From IMG/VR virus record IMGVR_UViG_3300032271_000867, positions 1 through 64,000 of that record: DNA of 64,000 bases; one strand, given 5' to 3'. Each line of letters starts with the position of its first letter. The first letter of the stretch is position 1. The translations under genes and the position numbers were made by a program. Source of the stretch: a virus. Shown here in pieces: positions 2,400 through 21,268 of the stretch. Below the pieces are notes generated by a model, which saw only the letters and a list, made by a program, of their open reading frames with translations, did no database searches and had not been told where the DNA came from.

Positions 2400-3677
2400 A
2401 TGAAAACCACAACACCCAACTCTTTCACTATCTACACAAGTGATGTTCCCCAAACAACTTTTGAGCGACAAGTTTTTGTTGCCAAGTTTGGTGAGATTAC
2501 AAAAATCGCTTCTCGATTGCTTGATCGCAACAGCAATAAGGCGGTTCGCAAAAGCTGGAACTTTGAATCGGCTGCGACTTTTGTTGCTTCGATCTCTGAA
2601 GCCGAACAACTAAAAACAGAACCAATCCAAAGCACTATGCGGGCTAACTTTGTGCAGAACTTCATAGTAGACAACAACCTAAACGCTGCCGGGCTAAAGG
2701 CTGTCAGAGAACTTATGGAAGCAAAACCTATGCTGATTAGCGTTTCTCTAAAAAAAGTTTTGTCTAGCCTTTTCGAGCAAACAAACCTTGAGTTTGAAAC
2801 CGCTGAAATAGCAACACCTGCGCCGGACTTCGCAAACGCTTGGGCGACGCTTTCGATTCCAAAACCTGAGGCACTAACCAATGGCGTTTACTACCCTCGA
2901 ATCGTTGAGAACAAGACGGAACAAGAATGGTATGAAACAGCGCTGGAGTGCAAAATGGCTGTGGCGATTTTTGGCGAAGCTGGAACAGGTAAAACTTCGA
3001 GTGCCGAGGCCGAAGCTGCAAGGCGTAAAGTGCCTTTTGTAGTTATGGAGTGCAACACAATGATCACAGACGAAAAGACCCAGGGGCGCTATGTTCCAAC
3101 GGGTCGTGGCAACGAACTTGAATGGCGTTACAGCGAGTTTGCAACGGCACTAGGGCAAGAATCGGTTATTTTGCTCAACGAAGCCAGTCGTATGTCACCA
3201 AAGGCAAACGCCTTGTTTATGCGTGTGCTTGCCGAGGGTGAGTTGATTATTGACACGCACAAAAACGAGAAAATCACTAAGCACCCACGCTGTTTGATTA
3301 TTGCCGATGCCAACCAAAACTATCGTGGCACGATGAACCCAGACCAAGCGTTCCTAGACCGCTTGCTAGTCAAGCTGGAGTTTCAGTATGACGAGGCGAT
3401 TGAAGCAAAGTTTATCCCTAGCCCTAGTCTGTTAGAGCTGGCTAAAGAGATGCGCCGAGCTGCTGCAACAAACGGCAAGTTTTCGACACCGGTATCAACT
3501 CGCTTGCTAAAAACTTTTGTGTCTATCGCACAGAAACTTAGTTTTAGAGCGGCTGTCTACAACTTCACAAACAACTTCGATCTTGACGAGCGTTCAAGTC
3601 TAAAAATGATGTTTTCAACCTACGCCGAAGCTATTGCTTCTGAACTAGGTGCTGAAACAGAGGATTTTGAGCTATAA
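2400..3677 (+). CDS. CobS/MoxR-like AAA+ ATPase
   Basis: This is a 425-residue protein with a C-terminal AAA+ module. Walker A is GEAGTGKTS at about residues 192-200. The Walker B-like strand is VILLNEASR at about 256-264, and FLDRL near 318-322 fits the arginine-containing segment of MoxR/CobS-type ATPases. The N-terminal 150 residues are helical and not recognised. MoxR-type ATPases work with partner proteins carrying a von Willebrand A domain, and such a gene follows after one base. In CobS-CobT the pair drives cobalt insertion into corrins. Other MoxR pairs mature or remodel metalloenzymes. The substrate here is unknown. The AAG GAA ribosome-binding site lies rather far upstream. Confidence 0.85.
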   Translation: MKTTTPNSFTIYTSDVPQTTFERQVFVAKFGEITKIASRLLDRNSNKAVRKSWNFESAATFVASISEAEQLKTEPIQSTMRANFVQNFIVDNNLNAAGLKAVRELMEAKPMLISVSLKKVLSSLFEQTNLEFETAEIATPAPDFANAWATLSIPKPEALTNGVYYPRIVENKTEQEWYETALECKMAVAIFGEAGTGKTSSAEAEAARRKVPFVVMECNTMITDEKTQGRYVPTGRGNELEWRYSEFATALGQESVILLNEASRMSPKANALFMRVLAEGELIIDTHKNEKITKHPRCLIIADANQNYRGTMNPDQAFLDRLLVKLEFQYDEAIEAKFIPSPSLLELAKEMRRAAATNGKFSTPVSTRLLKTFVSIAQKLSFRAAVYNFTNNFDLDERSSLKMMFSTYAEAIASELGAETEDFEL

Positions 3678-3678
3678 A

Positions 3679-5607
3679 ATGCAACGGATTTCTTTAGATG
3701 ATTTAGACGCAACCGATTTTTTTGATGCAGATGATTTTGACACATTACCTAGCGGTTGGCGTGGTTGCGTTGGTGGCCCGAATCTTTGGTCAGAACAAGA
3801 GCAGCTTCAGCGTGAGATGTTGTCAAAAATGGTGGCTGATGCTGAACGCTACGCAAGCGTTATTTCAAAGCGTGATGTATCTGCACACCTAATCAACAAT
3901 GGTTCTGTTCCTGCTTTCAGCTCGGCGAGCTCGATTACTTTTGTTGCTGAAAAAATCGGACTTTTGACTGAACCCCACGAAGTCGCTGGAGTAAAAGGAC
4001 TAACGCTGCACGAAGTGGCGCACATTATGTTTACCCCACGATCGCAGACACCTTTTGCTCAATGGGCGATCAACAATGCAAAACTTGCCTATCGAGTAGC
4101 GGAAGATGCTCGTATCGAACACTTGTTTTTGGGTCGTTTTGGTAGTTTTGTTTCGCCCTGGCTTATTGCTAGTTGTTTGCGATTTTTGTTGGCAGATGAA
4201 ACCCACATCGTCGTTGCTTACCCTGTGATCGTTGGTCGCAAATACTTGCCTTTGGAAGTTAGACAAGCGGTCAGAAATGCCTACTTGTTTCCGGCAGATG
4301 CTTCGGCTATTCAGTCGCTAATCAACCGCTATCGAGTGCTTGTTTTTGACTCGCAAGAAGCGGTTGATGAAGCTAAGTTGGTTCTTGCAGAACTACAAGT
4401 GCTGCTTGAAAAGTTGCCGTTGATGCAAGACCCAAACGGCCACGAGCAAAGAAGCGATAGCGAACTTGAAACAAGTATCAGCAGACCATTAGCAGCAGAC
4501 GAGCAAAACAAGGCTAAAGCAACGGCTGATAAACGAGGGTTCAAAGATACAACCGACATAAGCGAACAAACTCAAGTTGATAAAGATACAAAACAAAAAC
4601 TTGAGCAGTATGGTCAAAAAGCAGAGTTATTGCCGCCTAATCAAGAGGGTGATGATCCTGCAAATGGCACAGGCGAGAATGACAGCAACAGCGAGGAATC
4701 AAGCAGCGTTAGTGGTCTTACTAAAAATGGTGATGCTAAAAATACTCTTGATCCTGCTGTAAAAGCGGAGTTTGCCAAGTTGTTTGACAGGATTCTTGAC
4801 GAAAATCGAGCTGAAATCGCAAGCGACATAAAGTCGTGGGCAAAGCAGCAAGAGATTCAAGGCGGTATTGTCAAACCTATTGAGAAACACTATTACAGCG
4901 ATAGCGTTCTTGACAACACTACTCACCTAATGGCTAAAAAGTTTGGGCAGCAACTTCAGGAGCTACGCTTACAACACGAACCGGGTTGGGATAAACGAGT
5001 GTCTAGCGGTCGAATCAACGCTGGCCGTTTATTGCGTGGCGCTGATCTTGATGAAGCCTTTGATCGTTTTGACGAGGGCAGAGATGATGCAACCGAGATC
5101 GAGTGCGTTATCTTGTTAGACAAATCGGGTTCTATGGGTGGCGCAAATGCTGATGCAGCTTATCGTGCTATGTATGCTGTCAAAAAAGGACTGCAAGCGT
5201 TACAAGCAAATACTACTGTTGTTCTGTTTGACCATTACACATACCTGCTTTACGAGGCTAAAGACAAAGTAAACAACAGCGTTCGAGATGCTGGTGCAAG
5301 CGGTGGAACAGATGCCACAGGAGCAGTAAATCACGCTCGCAGTCTACTTGCTTCTAGCAGTAAAGCTGTAAAAATGCTGCTAATGATCACAGACGGCGAA
5401 TGGGGTCAGACACCACGCATTGACTTAGAGATTATGGAGTTGCGAAACTCGGGCGTTCTAACGGCGTTCTGTATGATTGGCGATAGCTTTTCAGACAGCA
5501 CTCACAACGCTGAAATCTCTTTGCAAATAAAATCAGCTAAGGACATACTTGCATTAGCAAAGGGTCTAGTGAAGCTGGCTATCAAACGACAACTAACAAA
5601 ATACTAA
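3679..5607 (+). CDS. CobT/NorD-like vWA protein with HExxH motif
   Basis: The ATG at 3679 starts one base after the ATPase stop and gives 642 residues. The N-terminal part has HEVAH at 111-115 and EDARIE at 142-147, a spacing like gluzincin metal sites. An acidic low-complexity linker spans roughly residues 260-370. The C-terminal vWA domain has the MIDAS motif DKSGS at about 481-485, a GGTDATG segment near 541 and ITDGEWG near 571. CobT, NorD and related MoxR partners share the vWA part. The HExxH...EDxRxE combination suggests a bound metal or peptidase activity. The acidic linker recalls CobT. The gene ends at a strong terminator. Function in the phage is unproven. Confidence 0.8.
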   Translation: MQRISLDDLDATDFFDADDFDTLPSGWRGCVGGPNLWSEQEQLQREMLSKMVADAERYASVISKRDVSAHLINNGSVPAFSSASSITFVAEKIGLLTEPHEVAGVKGLTLHEVAHIMFTPRSQTPFAQWAINNAKLAYRVAEDARIEHLFLGRFGSFVSPWLIASCLRFLLADETHIVVAYPVIVGRKYLPLEVRQAVRNAYLFPADASAIQSLINRYRVLVFDSQEAVDEAKLVLAELQVLLEKLPLMQDPNGHEQRSDSELETSISRPLAADEQNKAKATADKRGFKDTTDISEQTQVDKDTKQKLEQYGQKAELLPPNQEGDDPANGTGENDSNSEESSSVSGLTKNGDAKNTLDPAVKAEFAKLFDRILDENRAEIASDIKSWAKQQEIQGGIVKPIEKHYYSDSVLDNTTHLMAKKFGQQLQELRLQHEPGWDKRVSSGRINAGRLLRGADLDEAFDRFDEGRDDATEIECVILLDKSGSMGGANADAAYRAMYAVKKGLQALQANTTVVLFDHYTYLLYEAKDKVNNSVRDAGASGGTDATGAVNHARSLLASSSKAVKMLLMITDGEWGQTPRIDLEIMELRNSGVLTAFCMIGDSFSDSTHNAEISLQIKSAKDILALAKGLVKLAIKRQLTKY

Positions 5608-6516: not shown

Positions 6517-6552
6517 TTGACAAATACTTACCGAGGTAAGTATTCTATTCGT
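6517..6552 (+). promoter_or_regulatory. Promoter with palindromic operator, leaderless start
   Basis: TTGACA at 6517-6522 and TATTCT at 6541-6546 are separated by 18 bp and resemble a sigma70-type promoter. The spacer is almost filled by a perfect inverted repeat: AATACTTACC (6523-6532) and GGTAAGTATT (6535-6544) around GA. The repeat also covers part of the -10 element, so a bound dimer would block RNA polymerase. The expected transcription start falls at about 6553, the A of the ATG, so the mRNA would be leaderless. No Shine-Dalgarno sequence precedes the ATG. The regulator is unknown. Confidence 0.8.
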
Positions 6553-7044
6553 ATGCAAACATTCCTCACGATCGCAAGCACAGACTATGCAGCAACGGCC
6601 AGGACACTAGACAACAAACGCTTGAATAAGCAAGCTCTGGAAGCGTGGCAAATCCTAATGAACCTAACCAAGCTAGACCCGGCTGGTGATTACCGAGAAC
6701 CTAGAGGCTGGAGCAATCACCCGGCCGTCAAGATGTGGAGAGGTAGCGAGGGTAAGTTACTTGAATACATTTTGGCTATGGTCAAAGAGTGGCAAGATCG
6801 TGGCTATAACAGCACCATAGGAGATAAGGCCATAGCAACCTACGAGAGAGCTGTTCAGCTAGGGCTAGTGGGGCAAGAAGCTGACGAGCTGCCAAAATGG
6901 CAAAGCAACCAAGACAAGTTTGAAGCTATTACAAAGACACACCGACAAGCACTTTTAGTCAAAGACTATGAGTGGTATTCGCAGTTTGTTTGGGAAGAAG
7001 ATCTCGGATACAAGCAAGATTCTTATGAGTATGTTTGGGCATAA
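6553..7044 (+). CDS. Pyrimidine dimer DNA glycosylase-like (Pyr_excise)
   Basis: The 163-residue protein begins MQTFLTIASTDYAATARTLD and continues NKRLNKQALEAWQIL, then HPAVKMWRG. This pattern is characteristic of the actinobacterial branch of the pyrimidine-dimer DNA glycosylase family (Pyr_excise, T4 DenV relatives), whose members start MQTFLP with a D-x-x-RL-x-KQ segment and HPAVKMW. The predicted role is base excision of UV photoproducts. The start at 6553 matches the family N-terminus and excludes the TTG at 6517, which is the -35 element. The gene has its own promoter and operator, so it is probably expressed conditionally. Confidence 0.75.
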   Translation: MQTFLTIASTDYAATARTLDNKRLNKQALEAWQILMNLTKLDPAGDYREPRGWSNHPAVKMWRGSEGKLLEYILAMVKEWQDRGYNSTIGDKAIATYERAVQLGLVGQEADELPKWQSNQDKFEAITKTHRQALLVKDYEWYSQFVWEEDLGYKQDSYEYVWA

Positions 7045-7958: not shown

Positions 7959-8147
7959 ATGAATAAAAATATGGAAGAATACAACAAAGGTGTATTAGAT
8001 GGAACTCTTGCAGAAAGAGAACGCATTATCAAATACCTTATGGACAAAAATGTTTTGCGTGAAGCTTACTTTTACGAAGGCCTAGTTGCTATGGATATTG
8101 ACGGTAACACCGGCATTGATCTTGATAAAAAGTTAGGTGGGGAATAA
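7959..8147 (+). CDS. Small protein with ERERII motif (62 aa)
   Basis: The 62-residue protein begins MNKNMEEYNKGVLDGTLAER and carries ERERIIKYLMDK, paralogous in its first half to the 51-residue protein at 7540. The C-terminal half (VAMDIDGNTGIDLDKKLG) has a D-x-D-G-N-T-G-x-D run that resembles a calcium-loop pattern, though at this length that may be chance. It directly follows the membrane microprotein. Function is unknown. Confidence 0.65.
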   Translation: MNKNMEEYNKGVLDGTLAERERIIKYLMDKNVLREAYFYEGLVAMDIDGNTGIDLDKKLGGE

Positions 8148-8285
8148 ATGTACACCAAATTTTGGCAAGTAAAAAAACAAGATGAAGTTGTAAATATTTC
8201 TTTTGTTACTAAAAAATCAGCACTTTTATGGATTGCTGACCAATCAAATCCTGAAGAATACGAAATAATGAAAGTGAGTATGTAA
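8148..8285 (+). CDS. Small hypothetical protein (45 aa)
   Basis: ATG at 8148 directly follows the previous stop and encodes 45 residues beginning MYTKFWQVKKQDEVVNISFV. It looks like a small beta-plus-helix protein of the kind found in many phages. The stop overlaps the next start as TAATG. I recognise no family. Support comes from packing within the operon rather than from homology. Confidence 0.55.
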   Translation: MYTKFWQVKKQDEVVNISFVTKKSALLWIADQSNPEEYEIMKVSM

Positions 8286-8509
8286 TGTCTATATACGAAG
8301 ATGGTGGCTCAATAAAAGGATCTGGTGTTGATGCTTTTGAGTTTGAGTATGGTAACTTTACTTGTAAAAATGAAGAATGTTTGCTAGATAACTATGATGC
8401 TGTTGCTTATGGCAATGATTGGGGTTACTGGGAAGTAACCTGTGAAGAGTGCGACGTGCTTCACGACAGTGGAACTCGTAATACGCCGGAAGAGGAGGAG
8501 TGGTGGTAA
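8285..8509 (+). CDS. Small Cys-containing acidic protein (74 aa)
   Basis: The 74-residue protein begins MSIYEDGGSIKGSGVDAFEF. It has two paired-cysteine knuckles, CKNEEC and CEEC, spaced by about 20 residues, so it could bind one zinc ion. It ends with an acidic EEEEWW tail. It is coupled on both sides by TAATG overlaps, and the RBS for the downstream WhiB lies in its last codons. Function is unknown. Confidence 0.65.
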   Translation: MSIYEDGGSIKGSGVDAFEFEYGNFTCKNEECLLDNYDAVAYGNDWGYWEVTCEECDVLHDSGTRNTPEEEEWW

Positions 8510-8817
8510 TGAATCTTCTTATTGATATTTTAGATAGTGAAAAAGCACTGTGCACCCAAGAAAATCCTGATGTTTTCTTTGAAGAAGAAGATGTTGAAAC
8601 TACTCTTTATGCAAAACTTGTTTGTTCAGGATGTTCTCTTGTAGAAACCTGTATTGACAAGGCTATGCAAATTGATGATACTCAAGGAGTATGGGGAGGT
8701 AGCACTACACAGGAAAGATTATTGTTTAGAAAAAAACCTGAATACAAGGAGCTTCATATAGTTATGCTTCGTAAGTATGAGGGCGAAAAAAGTGTTCTAA
8801 ACATTATTCGCAAATAG
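8509..8817 (+). CDS. WhiB-family iron-sulfur regulator
   Basis: The start at 8509 follows AGGAGGAG and overlaps the previous stop as TAATG. The 102-residue protein has the four cluster cysteines of WhiB proteins: C15, then C39-x2-C42-x5-C48. The signature turn GVWGG is at 60-64, followed by a basic segment (TTQERLLFRKK). WhiB proteins bind a 4Fe-4S cluster and act with the host sigma factor. They occur only in Actinobacteria and their phages. It is last in its operon, before a strong terminator, and probably retunes host or phage transcription. Its targets are not visible from sequence. Confidence 0.92.
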   Translation: MNLLIDILDSEKALCTQENPDVFFEEEDVETTLYAKLVCSGCSLVETCIDKAMQIDDTQGVWGGSTTQERLLFRKKPEYKELHIVMLRKYEGEKSVLNIIRK

Positions 8818-8850
8818 AAAAAGCCCCTAGCCATAAACTAGGGGCTTTTT
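8817..8850. terminator. Bidirectional intrinsic terminator
   Basis: AAGCCCCTAG (8821-8830) pairs perfectly with CTAGGGGCTT (8838-8847) around a 7-nt loop. It is flanked by A residues on the left and T residues on the right, so it works in both directions. It sits between the plus-strand WhiB stop (8817) and the minus-strand RNR stop (8859), where the two convergent transcripts meet. Confidence 0.92.
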
Positions 8851-8858
8851 ACTATCTG

Positions 8859-10895
8859 TTACTGATTGTCTTTGATTAGTTTAATTTCACAAGCGTCTGT
8901 AGTGCAATAGGCCTCGCCAACAGCGTCAATAGCCAATCCAGCATATACACCGGCAAAATCAATCGGGAATAGCTGATTGCCATACTCGGTGTATTCTTCT
9001 TCAGTGATTTGTGTATAAGGCATCTGTGGGTAAACAGTATTGCCCATTGGCAAGAATGATACAGTCTTTAGCTGACCATCGTACATATGGAGCACAGTTC
9101 CAACCGCATTTGCTTCTTGAACAGCATCAAAAGTTACTGTTACTGATACAGAGTTGTCTGACCAGTAACGCTGTGCAGTTGCTGCTAGTGCAATTTTTTC
9201 GTAAATACTGACTTCTTTTTCAGATCTACTTGCACCACTTTTGATAGGGAAAAATACAACAGAGGTAGTTTCAGGAGATTCTGAAGCAGGTTCAACACGA
9301 TACTGGGCCATCTTGAAAAGAGGAAGCATAGGATCGTTATTACCAAAACGAATTGCACGAAGGAAATGCTTGCCACCAGCAGTCCAGTGAACACCAGGAC
9401 TTTCTCCAGCAAGAATAGACACAGTTCCTGAAGGTTTTACAGTAGTCATTTTGATAGATTCACGAACACCAAGCCACTCGGAATAGGTTGTGTCATAAGC
9501 TCTAACTACAGCATAACCTTCATCCATCCACTGACGAAGCACTGGTAGGCCTTTTTCATCTGCAAAGTTTGCTACACCTGAAACTGAAGTTCCAATACGG
9601 CGGTTGCGTTGCATAATAGCGTTGGTTTCTTCCCAGTGAGTTGGGAGCAGTGTTACAGTCTTGGCATATAGGTAGGCAAATTTTAGTGTGCGTTTAAAAT
9701 CTTCCAATGATTCGTGACGATTCAAGTAAGTTTCTACTAATGTACACATCTCAAATGATTCTAGCGATTGTTCAGCACAAGGATTGTAACCAACTACTCG
9801 CCAGTCTTTATTGTTTGGAGCATCTGCCAAACGACTATAAGCACGAGAAGTATCCATCCAAATAACACCAGGTTCACCATTACGAACGATACCATCAACA
9901 ATAGGTTCAAAATCAGTTCCAACTGTTACTTCGACAGAGTTGTTTGACATCCAACCCCATCCCGGTGTTTCAGGATCATAGGAGTTACGTTCTGGAAACT
10001 TTTCTGCATTTTTTAGATTTAAGAAGTTTTCATCATCAATACGACCAATCAACAACTCTGCTGAACGACGCACGTTACCTGAAACTACACAACGACCAAT
10101 CAAGTTACCAATATCGGCAATATCTACACCAGTAAGTAGTTGGCCTTTGCGTCCACGAAAAATATCACGAATTTTTGCGTGTAATGCAAACAATGGATCT
10201 GGGCCACTTGCTGTTCCACCAAAAGTAGCAATTGGAGTTCCATATGGCCTAATCTGGTCATAGTTAAATTCCCAAATAGGTTGATCTGGCTTTAGATAGG
10301 AGTTGATTAGTGCAACAGTTGATTCTTGCCAACCTTCACGAGTGTCAGGAATGTCATAGTTTTGAAAACCGTGAGGTTCATAAATCTCAAATCCTTTGTC
10401 TGCACCTTTATCGTCAAAACCTACGCCAACACCCAACATTGATGCTTCCATCAAAAATGCAAATGGTTTACCTGGATTTTGCTTAGTCATTTCATTAGTA
10501 GAAACAAACGCACAGTTCTGCAAAGCAGCTGAGTTTTTTTGAGTATTTACAATGTCTGTACCCATCACCCACAAACCACGACCCGGTGGTGTCCACTTTA
10601 AATTAAACAAACGATCAAATGCTTCTTTTGCACTTGCTGCTGCTTTTGCGTCTGACCAAGGCAATCGGTTTTGTTTAGCGTGGTCTTTTTGTAGTGAATA
10701 CATTCCATTAATAACACGTGCGCAAACATCTACCCAAGTTTCTTTAGTTCCATCTTCTTTTAGACGGGAATATGTGCGAAGAAAAGTAATTTCACCAACT
10801 GAGTTGCCTGCGACATCTGAATAACCAAATGGAGGTTTCTTATCCTTATATCCTGAAACAAAATCATCAGAAAGTTTAAAGGAAAAATTAGTCAT
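8859..10895 (-). CDS. nrdJ: Adenosylcobalamin-dependent ribonucleoside-triphosphate reductase (class II)
   Basis: The 678-residue protein matches the monomeric class II ribonucleotide reductase type (EC 1.17.4.2), which makes dNTPs using adenosylcobalamin and needs no oxygen or radical subunit. Key residues are visible: C128 in NCAF, the NPCAEQSLE active-site segment with C373 and E375, C384 in FEMC, the CVVSGNVRRSAE segment near 269-280, TVKPSGTVS near 486, and a C-terminal CxxxxC pair (C664, C669) for re-reduction. It is slightly shorter than the roughly 740-residue Lactobacillus enzyme. It ends the long minus-strand unit, just before the bidirectional terminator, and depends on cobalamin from the host. 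Confidence 0.95.
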   Translation of the reverse strand: MTNFSFKLSDDFVSGYKDKKPPFGYSDVAGNSVGEITFLRTYSRLKEDGTKETWVDVCARVINGMYSLQKDHAKQNRLPWSDAKAAASAKEAFDRLFNLKWTPPGRGLWVMGTDIVNTQKNSAALQNCAFVSTNEMTKQNPGKPFAFLMEASMLGVGVGFDDKGADKGFEIYEPHGFQNYDIPDTREGWQESTVALINSYLKPDQPIWEFNYDQIRPYGTPIATFGGTASGPDPLFALHAKIRDIFRGRKGQLLTGVDIADIGNLIGRCVVSGNVRRSAELLIGRIDDENFLNLKNAEKFPERNSYDPETPGWGWMSNNSVEVTVGTDFEPIVDGIVRNGEPGVIWMDTSRAYSRLADAPNNKDWRVVGYNPCAEQSLESFEMCTLVETYLNRHESLEDFKRTLKFAYLYAKTVTLLPTHWEETNAIMQRNRRIGTSVSGVANFADEKGLPVLRQWMDEGYAVVRAYDTTYSEWLGVRESIKMTTVKPSGTVSILAGESPGVHWTAGGKHFLRAIRFGNNDPMLPLFKMAQYRVEPASESPETTSVVFFPIKSGASRSEKEVSIYEKIALAATAQRYWSDNSVSVTVTFDAVQEANAVGTVLHMYDGQLKTVSFLPMGNTVYPQMPYTQITEEEYTEYGNQLFPIDFAGVYAGLAIDAVGEAYCTTDACEIKLIKDNQ

Positions 10896-10926
10896 AAATA
10901 GACCAGCTCTTTTCTATTAGATAGGT

Positions 10927-10950
10927 ATGCCCAGTATTTCTACTGGGCAT
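10927..10950 (-). other. Hairpin in leader of the RNR gene
   Basis: A perfect 10-bp stem (ATGCCCAGTA and its complement, 4-nt loop) lies 32 bases upstream of the RNR start, inside a 218-bp gene-free and very AT-rich stretch (10896-11113). No T run follows on the minus strand. It is either a U-less terminator for the upstream gene or a leader element that controls RNR. I saw no cobalamin riboswitch box. No clear promoter was recognised in the rest of the stretch. Confidence 0.6.
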
Positions 10951-11113
10951 AAATTGTTGTTGGAGTTCTACTCTACACTATTTTTTTGTATCTTTTTTTG
11001 AGGCATAAAAAGTATTTTTTGTGGGTATTAATATGAAAAAATTTATAGTATTTTTGGGTAAAAATTGCTAGAGATATATTTCAATATATAAATACTCTTA
11101 TTATCAGATAATA

Positions 11114-12601
11114 TTAGTCAATAGTTTTTTTGATAATCATTGTTGTTTGATCTTCAGAAATGGGTTGTTGTGCGTCTTTTATTGCCTGCACTCTATCCCC
11201 AAATAATCTAGTTAAAACACCTTGACTTGCATCTCTTTGTGCAGTAATTTGAATAAACTCTTTTTGTTCATCTAATGACTTTAATTTCTCTAACATTTTA
11301 AAATATCTGTCCATTTCTTGTGACAAATTTGGATCTGCGTATCCACCATTTAATTCTTCTGAATACCGCATAAATGCTACTCTTTGGGCTTGCATTTCTA
11401 GCAAAGTAGTATTTAATGCACGTAGTTGTTCTGGTGTTTTTACTTCTACTGGAAGGTTAAACGCACAAGTATTATTTTCTTTAAATGCGGGGCAGTTTGA
11501 TGCAATAAAGCACGTATTACACTGCCTTAATGTGACATTATTTGAGTTTACAATTGGGATATCTTTTAATACATCTTGACCATTTTCATTTTCTACAATG
11601 GTCTTCATTTGATACCCAAAAACAGGCATAGAAGTCATTTCTTGAGGGTCTCTTTGAACCACTTCAGTGCGTTCAACTTTCCGCATCTCTGACCCACTGT
11701 TATTAGAACCACCTATGCCAGTTTCCATCAAACTGGTGTATAGGGTATCATCACTGTTATCAGATACTTTGTCACCTTTTATGAGTTTTAGATCTGGTTT
11801 ATCTTTATCCATTTTTGCTTCTAACTGTAGGTATGACCAAATAGCAACTTTTGTTGCTTCTAGGGTGTCATCATTAATAAATTTTTGAAAATCTAATCCT
11901 GCTTTAGTTACTATATTTTGATAACGTTTACGGGCTTGATCTTTCATTGACTTTGGATATCGGACTAACTTAGTGCCATCCCAAATAATAGTTTCACCTC
12001 TACGCATTGGTGATAACCAACTAAGTGTGCTTGTAGTACTAAACGGTATTTGTCGTAAATTATCTGGTTTTACACTTGCTAAGGCGTGAAATTTAACGTC
12101 ATATTTTCTAGATAAATTTTGAGTAATACCGGCTAGTGCTAGTGATGATTCAATTGCATTATTTGGAATTGCAATATTAGAGTATTCCTCTGACCATTTG
12201 TGCAGTAACATTGTGCCGTAAATATCGTGCCATACTACCCACATCTTTGGGTCATCTTGAAACGCTGCACGTTGCTGCATAATCCAGGGTAATCCCAATG
12301 ATTGTGAATCAAACTCTACCCAACCTTCAATACGATCATAGTTTATTGCAATAAACTCTTCGTAATCTGCTGCGTATTCTTCTAATTCTCTTTGTGATAA
12401 TCCTGCTTTATCTGCTTGTAGTGCACCAGAATCTACCCAAATTTTAAAATTATCTTCAAAATGTTCTGAAATGTAATATTCTTTAGTCTTTGGTAGGCCA
12501 CGTTTTTTTAATCCCCAATAACTAACCATTACATTAGTTGCATTACTTTTGTGCAATAATAACCTATTACTAGGTATCTCTGTTCCACCAAATATAATCA
12601 C
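11114..12601 (-). CDS. TGT/DpdA-like TIM-barrel protein with Cys cluster
   Basis: The GTG start at 12601 forms a GTGA overlap with the upstream stop and gives 495 residues. The N-terminal 240 residues look like a TIM barrel related to tRNA-guanine transglycosylases and phage DpdA: WVDSGAL near 55, IEGWVEFDSQSLG near 91-103, WVVWHDIYG near 121, and TSTLSWLSPMRRG near 190-202. The C-terminal half has a cysteine cluster, RQCNTCFIASNCPAF then TCAF, that could bind zinc, followed by a helical region. DpdA enzymes insert 7-deazaguanines into DNA. No preQ biosynthesis genes are in the window, so the substrate is open. The assignment rests on motif resemblance only. Confidence 0.45.
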   Translation of the reverse strand: MIIFGGTEIPSNRLLLHKSNATNVMVSYWGLKKRGLPKTKEYYISEHFEDNFKIWVDSGALQADKAGLSQRELEEYAADYEEFIAINYDRIEGWVEFDSQSLGLPWIMQQRAAFQDDPKMWVVWHDIYGTMLLHKWSEEYSNIAIPNNAIESSLALAGITQNLSRKYDVKFHALASVKPDNLRQIPFSTTSTLSWLSPMRRGETIIWDGTKLVRYPKSMKDQARKRYQNIVTKAGLDFQKFINDDTLEATKVAIWSYLQLEAKMDKDKPDLKLIKGDKVSDNSDDTLYTSLMETGIGGSNNSGSEMRKVERTEVVQRDPQEMTSMPVFGYQMKTIVENENGQDVLKDIPIVNSNNVTLRQCNTCFIASNCPAFKENNTCAFNLPVEVKTPEQLRALNTTLLEMQAQRVAFMRYSEELNGGYADPNLSQEMDRYFKMLEKLKSLDEQKEFIQITAQRDASQGVLTRLFGDRVQAIKDAQQPISEDQTTMIIKKTID

Positions 12602-13083
12602 TCGAACGACACTCCTTCGCTACGAGTTAATCTTGCATCTTGTGTTCTTGCAATATTTTGACGCTCAATTGCTTGTTCAATATCATTCCATGCCCTTAGT
12701 TTTTTAGGTGCATCTGGCCTAAACTCTGGCCTAGTGTATGATGGAACACCAAACATAATTGATGGAATACCTTGCTCAAATGCAAATGCCCATAACTTTG
12801 GATTATTAGTGATGAGTAGGTCTACTCTACCTAAACTTCTAGCGACCATTACTTGGCGTTCTGCTAGTTCTTCGCCTTCTAGGCGGTATGATGAGTCAAT
12901 AATTCCATCATAATCAACAATTTTGTTGATATCTAACCACTGCTCTAATTGTTGCCGGGGATCTGATGACATTAAAAAAATTTGATTAAATGCAGTTAAT
13001 GTTCCTATTAAAACAATACCAGTGGCAATTGGATCTTCATTTGATCCTTTTAGTACTCCGTTTATATCTACTAATATTTTCAT
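12598..13083 (-). CDS. HAD-like phosphohydrolase-type protein (161 aa)
   Basis: The protein begins MKILVDINGVLKG, which fits HAD motif I, but the second catalytic aspartate is replaced by asparagine (D6, N8). FLMSSDPRQQ near residues 35-44 fits the motif II strand with serine, and VDLLITNNP near 108 fits the late acidic strand. HAD enzymes are mostly phosphatases. The N8 change suggests a weakened, altered or purely binding role. The gene lies between the Zn microprotein and the TGT-like gene and overlaps the latter, so it probably works in the same pathway. Confidence 0.55.
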   Translation of the reverse strand: MKILVDINGVLKGSNEDPIATGIVLIGTLTAFNQIFLMSSDPRQQLEQWLDINKIVDYDGIIDSSYRLEGEELAERQVMVARSLGRVDLLITNNPKLWAFAFEQGIPSIMFGVPSYTRPEFRPDAPKKLRAWNDIEQAIERQNIARTQDARLTRSEGVSFE

Positions 13084-13096
13084 TTGTTATTAGCCT

Positions 13097-13192
13097 TTAA
13101 TCCTCATAACAATCGCATTTGCAGTTATCTTCTACGCAAATTCCGTGGTATAGTTCATGGCCACATTTGTGGCAAGTGTCACTAAATGACAT
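13097..13192 (-). CDS. Zinc-binding microprotein (31 aa)
   Basis: ATG at 13192 overlaps the upstream TAA (TAATG), and the frame runs 31 codons: MSFSDTCHKCGHELYHGI, then CVEDNCKCDCYED. Six cysteines and three histidines in 31 residues, starting with C-x2-CGH, suggest a small zinc ribbon. It fills the gap between two larger genes exactly. The coupling supports expression. Function is unknown. Confidence 0.6.
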   Translation of the reverse strand: MSFSDTCHKCGHELYHGICVEDNCKCDCYED

Positions 13193-14079
13193 TAATTATT
13201 CCTATAAGTTGCTGCTCGTCTAATTAGAGTATTTGTATCTGGCAAATTTACTCCATAATTTGGCATTTTATTATCAAAATCTTTTTTGATATTCTTTAAT
13301 AAATCAATAGTTCCTGAGCTTTTACCTGCTTGCCAACGATAATTGTGGAAATCAGAATAACCTTCACCCGTTGGTGAAAATGCTAGGCTACGATTATTAT
13401 GAATCTCATCATATAATGCGGACGCTTGTTGTCCTGCTAAATTTAATTTAGTTTCTGCGTTACGTTTATTTGCATCATTTCTTGACAAACTAATGTCTTG
13501 AAGTGCTTGGCTGTAACGTGCTGATAGTTGCGTTGCAACTGAATTATCGGATGACGATACTGATTCCCATGCCGGGTTACTTGGTGCAGCTCTATTTGGA
13601 TCTGGGTGAACAGTCCATTCATCATATTTTAAATCATATGCTGCATATGGCTTAATGTTACGAATATCTGTTCCAGTTGGGTTTACATAAAATGTGAGTT
13701 CAAACCCATTCCAGTTGGATGTTTGTGGCTGTAGTTCATCTCTAAAATCTGAATTGATTTGTTGACTAATTTCTGCATCAGACAATCCACGATATTCTGG
13801 GTTTGCTTTGCGAAATTGTTCAAAATTTACTCCAACTAAACAATCTAAGTCTTTTGGAGTTCTGTTGGCTGACCATTGATAAGATACCCCACTACCTGCT
13901 AACCAAGGATGTGCCCATAAATCTGCATGACGATAATGTTTATCTAAAAACCCATACAGCAAACTATTGATTCCAGTTTTGATCCCAGAATGCAAAGACC
14001 TACCCTGGAACAACACAGGATCCAGGGTAGGTGCAGGTAGGCTAAAATACGAAGTGGAGTAGCTACCTAAATTATTCAT
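13192..14079 (-). CDS. Nucleotidyltransferase-fold protein (295 aa)
   Basis: The 295-residue protein contains AGSGVSYQWSANRTPKDLD at about residues 61-79. This fits the nucleotidyltransferase signature hG[GS]-x(9-13)-DhD, with G62, S63, D77 and D79 as the metal-site pair. The upstream segment (SGIKTGINSLLYGFLDKHY) is a helix typical before that motif. The C-terminal half is not recognised. Proteins of this fold transfer nucleotides to proteins, RNA, DNA ends or small molecules, including in toxin-antitoxin systems. It heads the cluster with Zn, HAD-like, TGT-like and RNR genes. Confidence 0.5.
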   Translation of the reverse strand: MNNLGSYSTSYFSLPAPTLDPVLFQGRSLHSGIKTGINSLLYGFLDKHYRHADLWAHPWLAGSGVSYQWSANRTPKDLDCLVGVNFEQFRKANPEYRGLSDAEISQQINSDFRDELQPQTSNWNGFELTFYVNPTGTDIRNIKPYAAYDLKYDEWTVHPDPNRAAPSNPAWESVSSSDNSVATQLSARYSQALQDISLSRNDANKRNAETKLNLAGQQASALYDEIHNNRSLAFSPTGEGYSDFHNYRWQAGKSSGTIDLLKNIKKDFDNKMPNYGVNLPDTNTLIRRAATYRNN

Positions 14080-14088
14080 AGGAATAGT

Positions 14089-14403
14089 TTAGGCGGTTTC
14101 AGCACTGCTTTCTGGCTGAATTCCACGCTCTTTTAGGGCATCTGAAACAACACTTGAAGTTGATGGCTGTTGCTGAGAAGCCATTACTTGCAACCAAGTG
14201 CCTACAATACGATCAGTTAATTGTTGGTTTTTAATTTCAGTAATAATATCTTGAGATACTTTGTAAACATCGTTTACATTTGCATTTCTAGACCCTTTTA
14301 GTGGGGTGTCTAGCTGCTCTAGTTCTGCTCGAAAGGTACCGTCTGTGTGAATAACAATTGCAATAACTGTTTCAATTTCTTTTTCGTTTTCGTTATTTTC
14401 CAT
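14089..14403 (-). CDS. Hypothetical protein (104 aa)
   Basis: The protein begins MENNENEKEIETVIAIVIHT and has a short beta-strand N-terminal part, a helical middle and a polar Ser/Gln-rich C-terminal tail. An AGGAAAG site precedes the start. I recognise no family. It is in the small-gene block between the SpoVS-like gene and the nucleotidyltransferase-like gene, where spacing is tight and all genes share one strand. Confidence 0.65.
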   Translation of the reverse strand: MENNENEKEIETVIAIVIHTDGTFRAELEQLDTPLKGSRNANVNDVYKVSQDIITEIKNQQLTDRIVGTWLQVMASQQQPSTSSVVSDALKERGIQPESSAETA

Positions 14404-14412
14404 TTTTCTTTC

Positions 14413-14973
14413 CTAGTTATACATGCCACGCATAGCACGTTGTTTTGTTACTATTACACTTTGCATTGGACAAAAATTACATAGATAAATTTTTGGTAAT
14501 GCTGCATCTTTGGGTGCTTCTAATCCAGCAGATTTGCGTTCTTTTGCAGTTTTTGGAAGTAATCGCTTACTTTCAGTTCTGTAATCTGCGCAATTATCTT
14601 CTGGCCTTAGATGATAAGTATAGCACGACATTGCATCTTCTGCAAATTGCATTTTAGTACTATAAAAATCGCCTTCTTCAGTCATTGCATCAAGGCCGGT
14701 TACTCCTGTGCCTTTTAGTTGATTAATGATTTCTTTACGATTGCTAGTATTTGCCCATACTTTTACAGGCAAAATAAACATTTTACCTTGATGCCTTAAA
14801 CCTGAAGGAAACTCATGTTTTTCTACTGTCATTTCAAGTAGAATATCTGTTTCAGAAGGCCCATCATGTGGAGGTAATTCATCGATGCTATTGCATACAA
14901 AACACAGTAATAGCCTAATTACCGGTCCGCTGTGTTCAAATTCACGTTTACCAATTAATGGTGCTTCCGCCAT
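14413..14973 (-). CDS. Hypothetical Cys-containing protein (186 aa)
   Basis: The 186-residue protein has LLLCFVCNSIDELPPHDG near residues 22-39 and a second pair LCNFCPMQS near 163. The two C-x2-C knuckles could form one zinc site that brings the ends together. Two further cysteines lie in the middle (MSCYTYHLRPEDNC). An AAGGACT site precedes the start. No enzyme motif is recognised. Confidence 0.7.
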   Translation of the reverse strand: MAEAPLIGKREFEHSGPVIRLLLCFVCNSIDELPPHDGPSETDILLEMTVEKHEFPSGLRHQGKMFILPVKVWANTSNRKEIINQLKGTGVTGLDAMTEEGDFYSTKMQFAEDAMSCYTYHLRPEDNCADYRTESKRLLPKTAKERKSAGLEAPKDAALPKIYLCNFCPMQSVIVTKQRAMRGMYN

Positions 14974-15002
14974 TTAGTAGTCCTTATTATTATTATTTGT
15001 TA

Positions 15003-17085: not shown

Positions 17086-17382
17086 TTAGCTTGCAGACAC
17101 TGCAAACACAATTGCAGAAATTTCACCATCTCGTGATTCAATAGTTGCAAATCCAACTTTAAATACTAAATCCATTCCACGAGGTGCTACATACCCACGA
17201 GAAATTGCCAATGCTTTTACTGCTTGGTTTACTGCTCCTGCACCAACTGCTCGTAGTTTTACTTGTTTATTATCATAAATTGCATGTGCAATTGCTGATG
17301 CTACGGATTGGGGGTTTGAACTTGCCGATACTCGTAAAAATGGTTCTTCATTTGAGGATGGCAAAATGTTTTCTTCGGTCAT
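17086..17382 (-). CDS. SpoVS-like protein
   Basis: The 98-residue protein matches the SpoVS family almost over its full length: LRVSASSNPQSVASAIAHAI, then VKLRAVGAGAVNQAVKALAI and SRGYVAPRGMDLVFKVGFAT. SpoVS proteins have an Alba/IF3-C-like fold and are thought to bind nucleic acid. In Bacillus they affect septation and spore development. The residues conserved in the family (GAGAxNQAVKAxAIxRG) are intact. The gene lies just downstream of the RuvC-like gene. A phage copy could bind DNA or alter host cell division. The direct role is unknown. Confidence 0.88.
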   Translation of the reverse strand: MTEENILPSSNEEPFLRVSASSNPQSVASAIAHAIYDNKQVKLRAVGAGAVNQAVKALAISRGYVAPRGMDLVFKVGFATIESRDGEISAIVFAVSAS

Positions 17383-19642: not shown

Positions 19643-19976
19643 TAGGCCACTGACCGTCTAGCACCATCATCGCAATGATTGCATAGTTAGCGAGGTCTAG
19701 GAAAGAATCCTTGAGACTTTCATTTTCTGGGTTAGCCCCTGAGTCAACTAGGTTATTAATACGAGCCAGTTTATCCCACATACGAACACGAAGGCCGTTA
19801 AGCGGTCCGCCTGGGCTTAGTGAGATGTTTTTTGGTCCGTAGTCAGCGTGTTTTTTTAGTAGTACGTGTTCAGCTTGAGCAAACTGTTGAGCAAGGTCAT
19901 CTTTAAACTGTAGGTGGGGGATAATTTCATCAGGTAAAGTTGTTTGCTCTGTGTATAGTGATGCCATTTGTGCCAT
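19635..19976 (-). CDS. Nucleotide modification associated domain 1 (DUF1599) protein
   Basis: The 113-residue protein has HADYGPKNISLSP, LRVRMWDKLARINNL, and SLKDSFLDLANYAIIAMMV in order. This is the hallmark of the family called DUF1599 or nucleotide modification associated domain 1, an all-helical MazG/dUTPase-related group found in phages. The KLxRxxxL and D-x-x-NY-x-I-I motifs are typical. It likely acts on nucleotides or base-modification intermediates. It is near the recombination genes and in the same operon as the class II RNR. Confidence 0.8.
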   Translation of the reverse strand: MAQMASLYTEQTTLPDEIIPHLQFKDDLAQQFAQAEHVLLKKHADYGPKNISLSPGGPLNGLRVRMWDKLARINNLVDSGANPENESLKDSFLDLANYAIIAMMVLDGQWPNE

Positions 19977-20422
19977 TATATATTCCTTTTAAAATCGTTT
20001 GATCTACGAGTAATTTCTCTTGAAACTAGTAATAAATCACGCTCATGATTATTTAGTAGCATCTCTACTAATTTACGATAAGCATATTTTTCTTCATACT
20101 GGTTATCAAGTTCAATAATTTCTGGACTAATTGCTACTTCAGCTTTAATAGCAGTTACACGTTCACCTTTTGCTTGAGCTCCCATACGGCGAATTAACAT
20201 CGTACTTTCTAAGAATTCTTTCTTTTTTAAAGATGCACGTTCTTCTAACTGAGCCATTGTAAGCTGTGAGTTAATGTAATCAGTCCATGCAGTTAGTTGA
20301 GTAAATAATCTTCCCAGCTCTTCTGATCCAATATCAGTAATATCTGAAGGCAAAGTTACTTGATCTTCTGATGGTTTGTAGAAGTGTATTCCCCATTCAT
20401 TAAATTTTTCTAATGCACTCAT
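19976..20422 (-). CDS. Hypothetical helical protein (148 aa)
   Basis: The 148-residue protein begins MSALEKFNEWGIHFYKPSED and is nearly all helical, with QLEERASLKKKEFLESTMLI and LLLVSREITRRSNDFKRNI as long charged helices. It directly precedes DUF1599 and follows the Cas4-like exonuclease gene, leaving four bases between. It may be a partner in recombination or end processing, but no family is recognised. Confidence 0.65.
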   Translation of the reverse strand: MSALEKFNEWGIHFYKPSEDQVTLPSDITDIGSEELGRLFTQLTAWTDYINSQLTMAQLEERASLKKKEFLESTMLIRRMGAQAKGERVTAIKAEVAISPEIIELDNQYEEKYAYRKLVEMLLNNHERDLLLVSREITRRSNDFKRNI

Positions 20423-20425
20423 TTA

Positions 20426-21268
20426 CTACTCCTTATATGGGTCACATTGTTTGCAAGTACCACTTGGGTTGTTGGTACATTCTGGAACAACTCCTGCATT
20501 TACTGAGTCTACCACAACTTTTGCTTTGTCAAAAATGTGTTCTACTAAACCAAAGTCAGCTTTTACTGGCTCAAATTCACGGTAATCTTGGTCTGCTTTT
20601 AGTTCATAAAGGAAAATAATTTCAGTAACTTCTTCGTGACCCATACGTTTCATAAGTTCTAAGTACATTTGACCTTGAAGAATGTGACTTGAAAATGGAC
20701 GTTTAATTGCTTTCCATGCCTTCATAAAGTCACCATCAGCTTCTTTCATTAGTTCTGGAGCTTCAAAACGTAATGTACCGGGACCCACTGATTTAATTTC
20801 AATTAGTGCATCACCTTGTGAATCTTTAATCCATCCATCAGTATGGCCTTTAATTCGTAAAGAATCATCTGAGAGAGTTACCTCTGCATAAATAAGGTCT
20901 GGTTTTCCGCATCGATCGCAGGACTCTGGAGAAGTTCCCCAAGTAATCCAATGACAGGCTTGGCATTTAAATTGACCATGCAAAATGCCCATTTCTTGAA
21001 AATATCCTTGCCATTTAGAGTGAACAGCATGGCCGGTATCAAATACAGACTGTAATTTTAACGGAGGTTTTTCTGCAATTTTTGTTTCTCCATTTAGTAA
21101 AAAGTAAGATCCTCGCATACACCAATCTTTTTTTATAATTTCTGAAGGATGTAGTACAGTAGTACTTCGATTACCCGGAGGTCGTTGTAGCAAGTGTCGT
21201 TCTAAATTTCCAATAAGTCTGGTGTTAGTTTTTTTAGCGTCTAAAAAACGCTTTAGTTCTGAGCTCAT
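20426..21268 (-). CDS. Cas4/RecB-like PD-(D/E)XK exonuclease
   Basis: The 280-residue protein has the RecB-type core: GHTDGW (D144), ALIEIKS (E157, K159) and HILQGQMYLEL (the QxxxY motif at 198-202). Cysteines C50 and C264, C272, C275 match the arrangement of an iron-sulfur cluster in Cas4 and AddB-type nucleases. A separate C102-x2-C105...C117-x2-C120 knuckle is inserted before the core and suggests zinc. The predicted role is DNA end resection for recombination with the RecA gene 1 kb downstream. Confidence 0.85.
   Translation of the reverse strand: MSSELKRFLDAKKTNTRLIGNLERHLLQRPPGNRSTTVLHPSEIIKKDWCMRGSYFLLNGETKIAEKPPLKLQSVFDTGHAVHSKWQGYFQEMGILHGQFKCQACHWITWGTSPESCDRCGKPDLIYAEVTLSDDSLRIKGHTDGWIKDSQGDALIEIKSVGPGTLRFEAPELMKEADGDFMKAWKAIKRPFSSHILQGQMYLELMKRMGHEEVTEIIFLYELKADQDYREFEPVKADFGLVEHIFDKAKVVVDSVNAGVVPECTNNPSGTCKQCDPYKE

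Follow-up and report, generated by a model that had tools for sequence, protein, structure and literature searches.

The virus record IMGVR_UViG_3300032271_000867 from IMG/VR carries, on its minus strand, a conserved block of genes, one of which encodes a 495-residue protein similar to TGT and DpdA (11114-12601, GTG start). We analyzed the window, i.e., the whole stretch of bases 1-64000 of this 88,412-bp record, and read the part beyond it as loci L023 and L024. The protein is most likely a widespread repurposed DpdA and the block not a 7-deazaguanine pathway, and the function of the protein is presumably new. Since the catalytic residues appear to be lost and yet the gene is under strong selection in a fixed block, the conserved TGT-like gene probably does a different job from base swapping. 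On balance, we lean towards the view that the 495-residue protein is an exapted phage DpdA that now serves as a nucleic-acid- or base-binding platform in phage DNA metabolism. The WhiB gene of the record and the relatives of the block point to actinobacterial hosts for the phage.

Fold and active site of the DpdA-like protein

The PHROGs database assigns the 495-residue protein to phrog_887, 'queuine tRNA-ribosyltransferase' (E 1.8e-57), a name that is probably wrong for this clade. Its AlphaFold2 model is confident over most of residues 1-260 and confirmed a predicted TIM barrel of the TGT/DpdA type. More precisely, Foldseek alone put generic TIM barrels first, and a second look with VIA-align resolved the match to the TGT superfamily, with archaeosine TGT (Z 16.0), the TGT of Z. 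mobilis (15.6), and the DNA preQ0 insertase DpdA (7ui4, 15.5). The VIA-align rows shown all belong to this superfamily (TGT, ArcTGT, DpdA) and align 255-262 residues with a root-mean-square deviation of 3.5-4.0. Searches of the PDB sequences with the protein, with a profile of its family, and with a profile of canonical DpdA found no TGT, so that the link to TGT comes from structure and from profile-profile comparison. Pfam had no match for this protein, nor for the HAD-like, nucleotidyltransferase-like, and 186-residue proteins of the block. The barrel covers approximately residues 1-270 and is followed by a linker and by a C-terminal helical domain (approximately residues 359-470; 11192-11527, minus strand) with four invariant cysteines, C361, C364, C370, and C379. 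An initial annotation of the region had proposed, from motifs, a TGT/DpdA-like barrel with a Cys cluster, and this is borne out by phrog_887, by the VIA-align scores (Z 15-16), by hhalign (see below), and by a model that does align to TGT, ArcTGT, and DpdA.

In the TGT of Z. mobilis, Asp280 is the nucleophile that attacks the sugar and Asp102 deprotonates the incoming base (PMC6165067). Both catalytic Asp are present in all 16 DpdAs of diverse phages that were compared, including that of Enterobacteria phage 9g, and these proteins also keep D114, H141, and H196 (9g numbering). In the analysis, Eaglehorse, a Rosebushvirus relative, and Saguaro took the place of Orion and Rosebush. We took D215 of the 9g DpdA to be the equivalent of Asp280 and D72 that of Asp102, the mapping of D215 being based on motif position (the HGFG strand, then VDSSSW) and on established knowledge of TGT and DpdA rather than on a superposition of coordinates. 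MAFFT and hhalign concur on the pairing of the nucleophile column. Among 130 distinct sequences of the family, this column holds Ser (123), Ala (6), or Thr (1), and never Asp; in the window protein it is Ser, at codon 191 (12029-12031, minus strand). The column of the first Asp, the general acid/base, holds Asp in 64 sequences, Glu in 58, His in 5, and Ser in 3, and the window protein retains Asp57 in a DSGA motif (12431-12433, minus strand). The family thus has in common with the DNA 7-deazaguanine insertases of the 9g type the barrel fold and the motif frame (DSG, H, PW..S), but it lacks the nucleophile that 9g and the 15 other DpdAs keep. The alignments show that the predicted barrel has lost the TGT nucleophile, and because this Asp forms the covalent intermediate, the 495-residue protein would no longer exchange bases by the known mechanism, as judged by criteria of sequence and structure.

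Other positions at the mouth of the barrel are near-invariant in the same 130 members, namely E96 (129), D98 (123), and W124, H172, K178, and D180 (127 each), and for this reason the active site may have been rebuilt. These residues lie at, or just past, the C-terminal ends of predicted barrel strands (ends near 94, 122, and 175), and E96, K178, and P179 are not common to the aligned canonical DpdAs. The protein would then be a retooled enzyme that performs another reaction on a nucleobase, a nucleotide, or a nucleic acid, feeding or fed by the nucleotidyltransferase of the block, and the low dN/dS given below is in line with this. However, D98 and H172 are also found in DpdA, so that this part of the pattern is simply ancestral, and the searches made turned up no substrate, cofactor, or matching known enzyme. 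We regard such an enzyme as unlikely, albeit a serious contender. We are equally tentative on the broader proposal that the TGT-fold barrel, with a rebuilt active site, a fused four-Cys domain, and the nucleotidyltransferase, carries out some novel chemistry on nucleic acids or nucleotides as part of the core DNA metabolism of many actinophages.

The initial annotation had found no preQ0 genes in the window, and this holds, for QueC, QueD, and FolE, in the whole 88 kb record and in 26 relatives: profiles of the three had no match in any of these 27 family genomes, where QueE was not searched. In contrast, all three had matches in each of the four DpdA phages used as controls. In family genomes, a profile of canonical DpdA found no gene besides the degenerate one, hence at most one TGT-like gene per genome, and the idea that the protein forms a heterodimer with another TGT of the phage was discarded. 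Four actinobacterial genomes that carry relatives of the 495-residue protein all lack TGT; two of them, of Nonomuraea, also lack QueC, and a third, of Saccharothrix sp. ST-888, encodes a strong QueC match. Phages with DpdA but without preQ0 genes have been described by Hutinet et al. (2019), who found the DNA of mycobacteriophage Orion to be unmodified and traces of dADG in Salmonella phage 7-11, which has DpdA only (PMC6884629). The window family is like these singleton DpdAs in having a DpdA-like gene without preQ0 genes.

The traces in phage 7-11 and the QueC of Saccharothrix would fit an active base exchange of the DpdA/TGT type, with an altered mechanism and a base that is scavenged or comes from the host, which is what has been supposed for phages with a singleton DpdA. 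However, the nucleophile is absent in 130 of 130 sequences and the first Asp is replaced in half of them, the searches in the family phages returned none of the three preQ0 genes, and the two Nonomuraea carriers have neither TGT nor QueC. We therefore consider this exchange improbable, and the base-modification path that the initial annotation had suggested is, as far as TGT chemistry goes, likewise not supported.

Relation to the DpdA of Bacteroides phages

In Bacteroides phage BS162P1, a QueC-like gene (00086), a canonical DpdA (00087), and a gene for the four-Cys domain (BS162P1_00088) stand in direct succession, with a QueE-like gene (00091) nearby, and the same gene set is found in IMG/VR phage L114 and in faecal phage L027. 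Three anchor genes are collinear between BS162P1 and the window, all on the minus strand of the latter. They encode an exonuclease-like protein (20426-21268; phrog_2506, E 1.4e-28; E 2.6e-5 to the Bacteroides phage counterpart), a 148-residue protein (19976-20422; E 1e-11), and a SpoVS-like protein (17086-17382; PF04232, E 5e-27; BLAST E 3e-11 to BS162P1). After these anchors, the comparison of BS162P1 with the window gives the barrel (E 7e-7) and then the Cys domain (E 2e-14). Alignment of the family profile with canonical phage DpdAs by hhalign gave a probability of 93.5% (E 2.2e-7). The homology and collinearity with the Bacteroides phages would be best explained by one ancestral arrangement. 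Given the collinear genes common to the Bacteroides DpdA phages and the window phage, a functional phage DpdA is the most likely ancestor of the 495-residue protein. The catalytic form, present in all DpdAs examined and in TGT, would be the ancestral one. BS162P1 differs from the window family in that its barrel and Cys domain are two genes, the Asp motif is intact, preQ0 genes are present, and the nucleotidyltransferase has no match.

That the Cys domain is also encoded by a gene of its own, next to a canonical DpdA, speaks against a role in packaging, in which this domain would recognize DNA in the manner of a terminase small subunit. Of 11 sequences of the C-domain, eight have hits to phrog_6902, 'terminase small subunit' (best E 0.0095), but the match is weak and was not adopted, and the gene is located past those for replication and recombination, at a great distance from the TerL-like gene (L023, 7451-9052). 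We give this role very little credence.

A few features of the DpdA genes and anchors deserve mention. In faecal phage L027 (MT835482.1, 3521-5719), a long intein-like insert interrupts the DpdA open reading frame at the catalytic D-S-T-T-W motif; active sites are frequent locations of inteins. Microbacterium phage Megan (L284, 134-2007) has two DpdA genes in tandem, each with its Asp motif intact, followed by a QueC-like gene; they may reflect two base or site specificities. The SpoVS-like gene of the window stands next to a RuvC-like resolvase gene, and its position is kept in the Bacteroides phages too.

The conserved block and its possible role

The five open reading frames of the initial annotation, all on the minus strand (8859-10895, 11114-12601, 12598-13083, 13097-13192, and 13192-14079), were confirmed, and synteny and dN/dS indicate that they are real, conserved genes. 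The four lying upstream overlap or are all but contiguous: the genes of the 295-residue nucleotidyltransferase-like protein (13192-14079) and of a 31-residue Cys-rich protein of Zn type (13097-13192) have one base in common, and those of the 161-residue HAD-like protein (12598-13083) and of the TGT-like protein overlap by 4. Further upstream are genes for a 104-residue protein (14089-14403, minus strand) and for a 186-residue Cys-rich protein (14413-14973, minus strand; C24, C27, C117, C128, C165, C168), the latter a constant member of the block that had been overlooked.

We counted these genes in 147 loci for which no less than 3 kb of upstream sequence was available; many of the loci come from contigs that are represented more than once, so that the figures are not a tally of independent phages. 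The order of the block is fixed. The 186-residue and HAD-like genes are each present in 146 loci, the nucleotidyltransferase in 143, the frequent 104-residue member in 88, and the optional 31-residue member in 45. Records of at least 80 kb found through the terminase, and not through the TGT-like gene, carry the latter in four cases out of four, which suggests a core role for it. In related pairs, Nei-Gojobori dN/dS is 0.04-0.14 for the TGT-like protein, compared with 0.03-0.09 for the other block proteins, which shows strong purifying selection. From these counts, the terminase-found records, and the dN/dS, the constant unit consists of the 186-residue, nucleotidyltransferase, HAD-like, and TGT-like genes.

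The 495-residue protein had 18 close relatives in a first scan of IMG/VR and hundreds when an alignment was used as the query. Relatives at approximately 32% identity are carried by six Streptomyces phage records, and others occur in genomes of Nonomuraea, Saccharothrix, and Streptomyces; the 186-residue gene is present in Streptomyces phages and actinobacterial genomes as well. The Streptomyces phages BRock, GiJojo, pSt2308, LuckySocke, and Alone3 belong to the same family: all have homologues of the nucleotidyltransferase, HAD-like, and TGT-like genes, and the block order is that of the window wherever read. They differ by their low identity, by the lack of an adjoining ribonucleotide reductase, and by an extra low-complexity gene between the HAD-like and TGT-like genes. 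In Streptomyces sp. ISL-96 (L196, 10028-10480), we found the C-terminal part alone of the TGT-like protein, apparently a remnant.

Among the partners, the nucleotidyltransferase-like protein may be active. Its residues G62, S63, D77, D79, and E127 (GS...DLD...E) are invariant in 68 of 68 sequences and follow the Pol beta-type pattern hG[GS]x(9-13)Dh[DE]h with a third acidic residue. Its model has a pLDDT of 90 and matches phage relatives in BFVD, one of them named nucleotidyl transferase domain protein; the PDB matches listed for it stemmed from its helical half. The profile match of this protein holds one internal stop codon in the Streptomyces-type phage records G020-G023 (L117, L118, L119, L121), which may be a match overrunning the end of the gene or a broken gene. 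At its usual place in Saccharothrix sp. ST-888 (L194, 8071-8928), there is an HNH-like open reading frame. For the HAD-like protein itself there is neither a library match nor a fold match, and its label comes from Streptomyces homologues annotated as hydrolase or phosphatase. The initial annotation had Asn in place of its second catalytic Asp, which is correct for the window sequence, where the nucleophile position is Asp; across 64 relatives, however, the residue that is not conserved is the first Asp, the nucleophile (D6: Glu 28, Ser 18, Asp 14, Val 3, Gln 1). Because of this variation, it is unlikely that members of the putative HAD-like family function as HAD phosphatases, and the protein is probably a pseudo-enzyme. 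In the 31-residue protein, C7, C10, C19, C24, C26, and C28 are invariant, the Cys/His being invariant in 26 sequences.

The anti-defence or DNA hypermodification module proposed in the initial annotation would be compatible with descent from DpdA, an anti-restriction enzyme, and with a nucleotidyltransferase whose motif is apparently intact. However, PADLOC-DB had no match among four block proteins, NCBIfam had none above cut-off, and the four terminase-found records all carry the TGT-like gene; anti-defence genes are usually patchy in distribution. We find this proposal highly improbable.

The exaptation of DpdA, which we prefer, would have started from an ancestral phage with DpdA, the DNA preQ0 insertase, and a separate four-Cys partner beside recombination genes, an arrangement that the Bacteroides phages retain along with genes for preQ0 synthesis. 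The lineage of the actinophages has the two fused and lacks the preQ0 genes, and its barrel has lost the Asp of the covalent sugar-enzyme intermediate and, presumably with it, base swapping by the known mechanism. Strong selection keeps the protein in the company of a Cys-rich protein, a nucleotidyltransferase that appears intact, and a HAD-like protein whose nucleophile is not conserved. Barrel and Cys domain would now serve as a platform that binds nucleic acids or a base, and the enzyme would be the nucleotidyltransferase, where there is one, all of this in a step that is core to the DNA metabolism of the phage. A parallel is eukaryotic QTRT2, a non-catalytic TGT paralogue with a degenerate active site (PMC6165067); yet QTRT2 pairs with an active TGT, and no second TGT-like gene was found in phages of the window family. 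Several points weigh against this scenario. Conservation at the barrel mouth exceeds the needs of a pure scaffold, and the C-terminal half of the AlphaFold2 model is of low confidence. In addition, the nucleotidyltransferase is missing from the 100-kb IMG/VR phage L123 and from the Saccharothrix locus, and so it cannot be an obligate partner everywhere.

Neighbouring genes and implications

The ribonucleotide reductase (8859-10895, minus strand) is of class II, as initially annotated, and adenosylcobalamin-dependent, but its membership in the cluster was not confirmed. It follows the TGT-like gene after 218 bp, is not found next to the block in the phages of Streptomyces or in several of those from IMG/VR, and is a frequent neighbour only (109 of 147 loci), outside the conserved block. 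The hairpin at 10926-10951, between the two genes, lacks a T-run on the strand of the operon, and the reductase may or may not be part of that operon; a symmetric hairpin with T-runs lies at 8818-8850, between the reductase and the convergent WhiB gene. Rfam gave nothing above gathering scores in 8000-15000, hence no known riboswitch before the reductase.

The record encodes a contractile-tail phage, with recognizable genes for tail sheath, baseplate, DNA polymerase, DnaB-like helicase, primase, and RecA-like protein. By inspection, its remainder has portal-, capsid-, and terminase-like open reading frames, the last with hundreds of homologues. On the plus strand of the window, there is a CobS-like AAA ATPase (2400-3677; phrog_249, 'porphyrin biosynthesis', E 3.7e-28), adjoined by a 652-residue protein (3649-5607) that is vWA/CobT-like by eye, in a phage that has a B12-dependent reductase. 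A pyrimidine dimer DNA glycosylase (6517-7044; Pyr_excise, E 9.3e-19) is also found in this probable actinophage.

When a conserved gene of a large group of actinophages from fresh water and soil is annotated as a queuine/DpdA transglycosylase, one is led to predict that their DNA is modified. Here, the sequence evidence indicates that the chemistry named in the annotation has been lost although the gene is strongly selected, and Bacteroides phages still have what is likely to be the ancestral arrangement. The 495-residue protein would thus be a tangible example of how phages exapt an enzyme for a new role; it calls for caution in predicting DNA modification and raises directly testable questions for 'singleton DpdA' genes.

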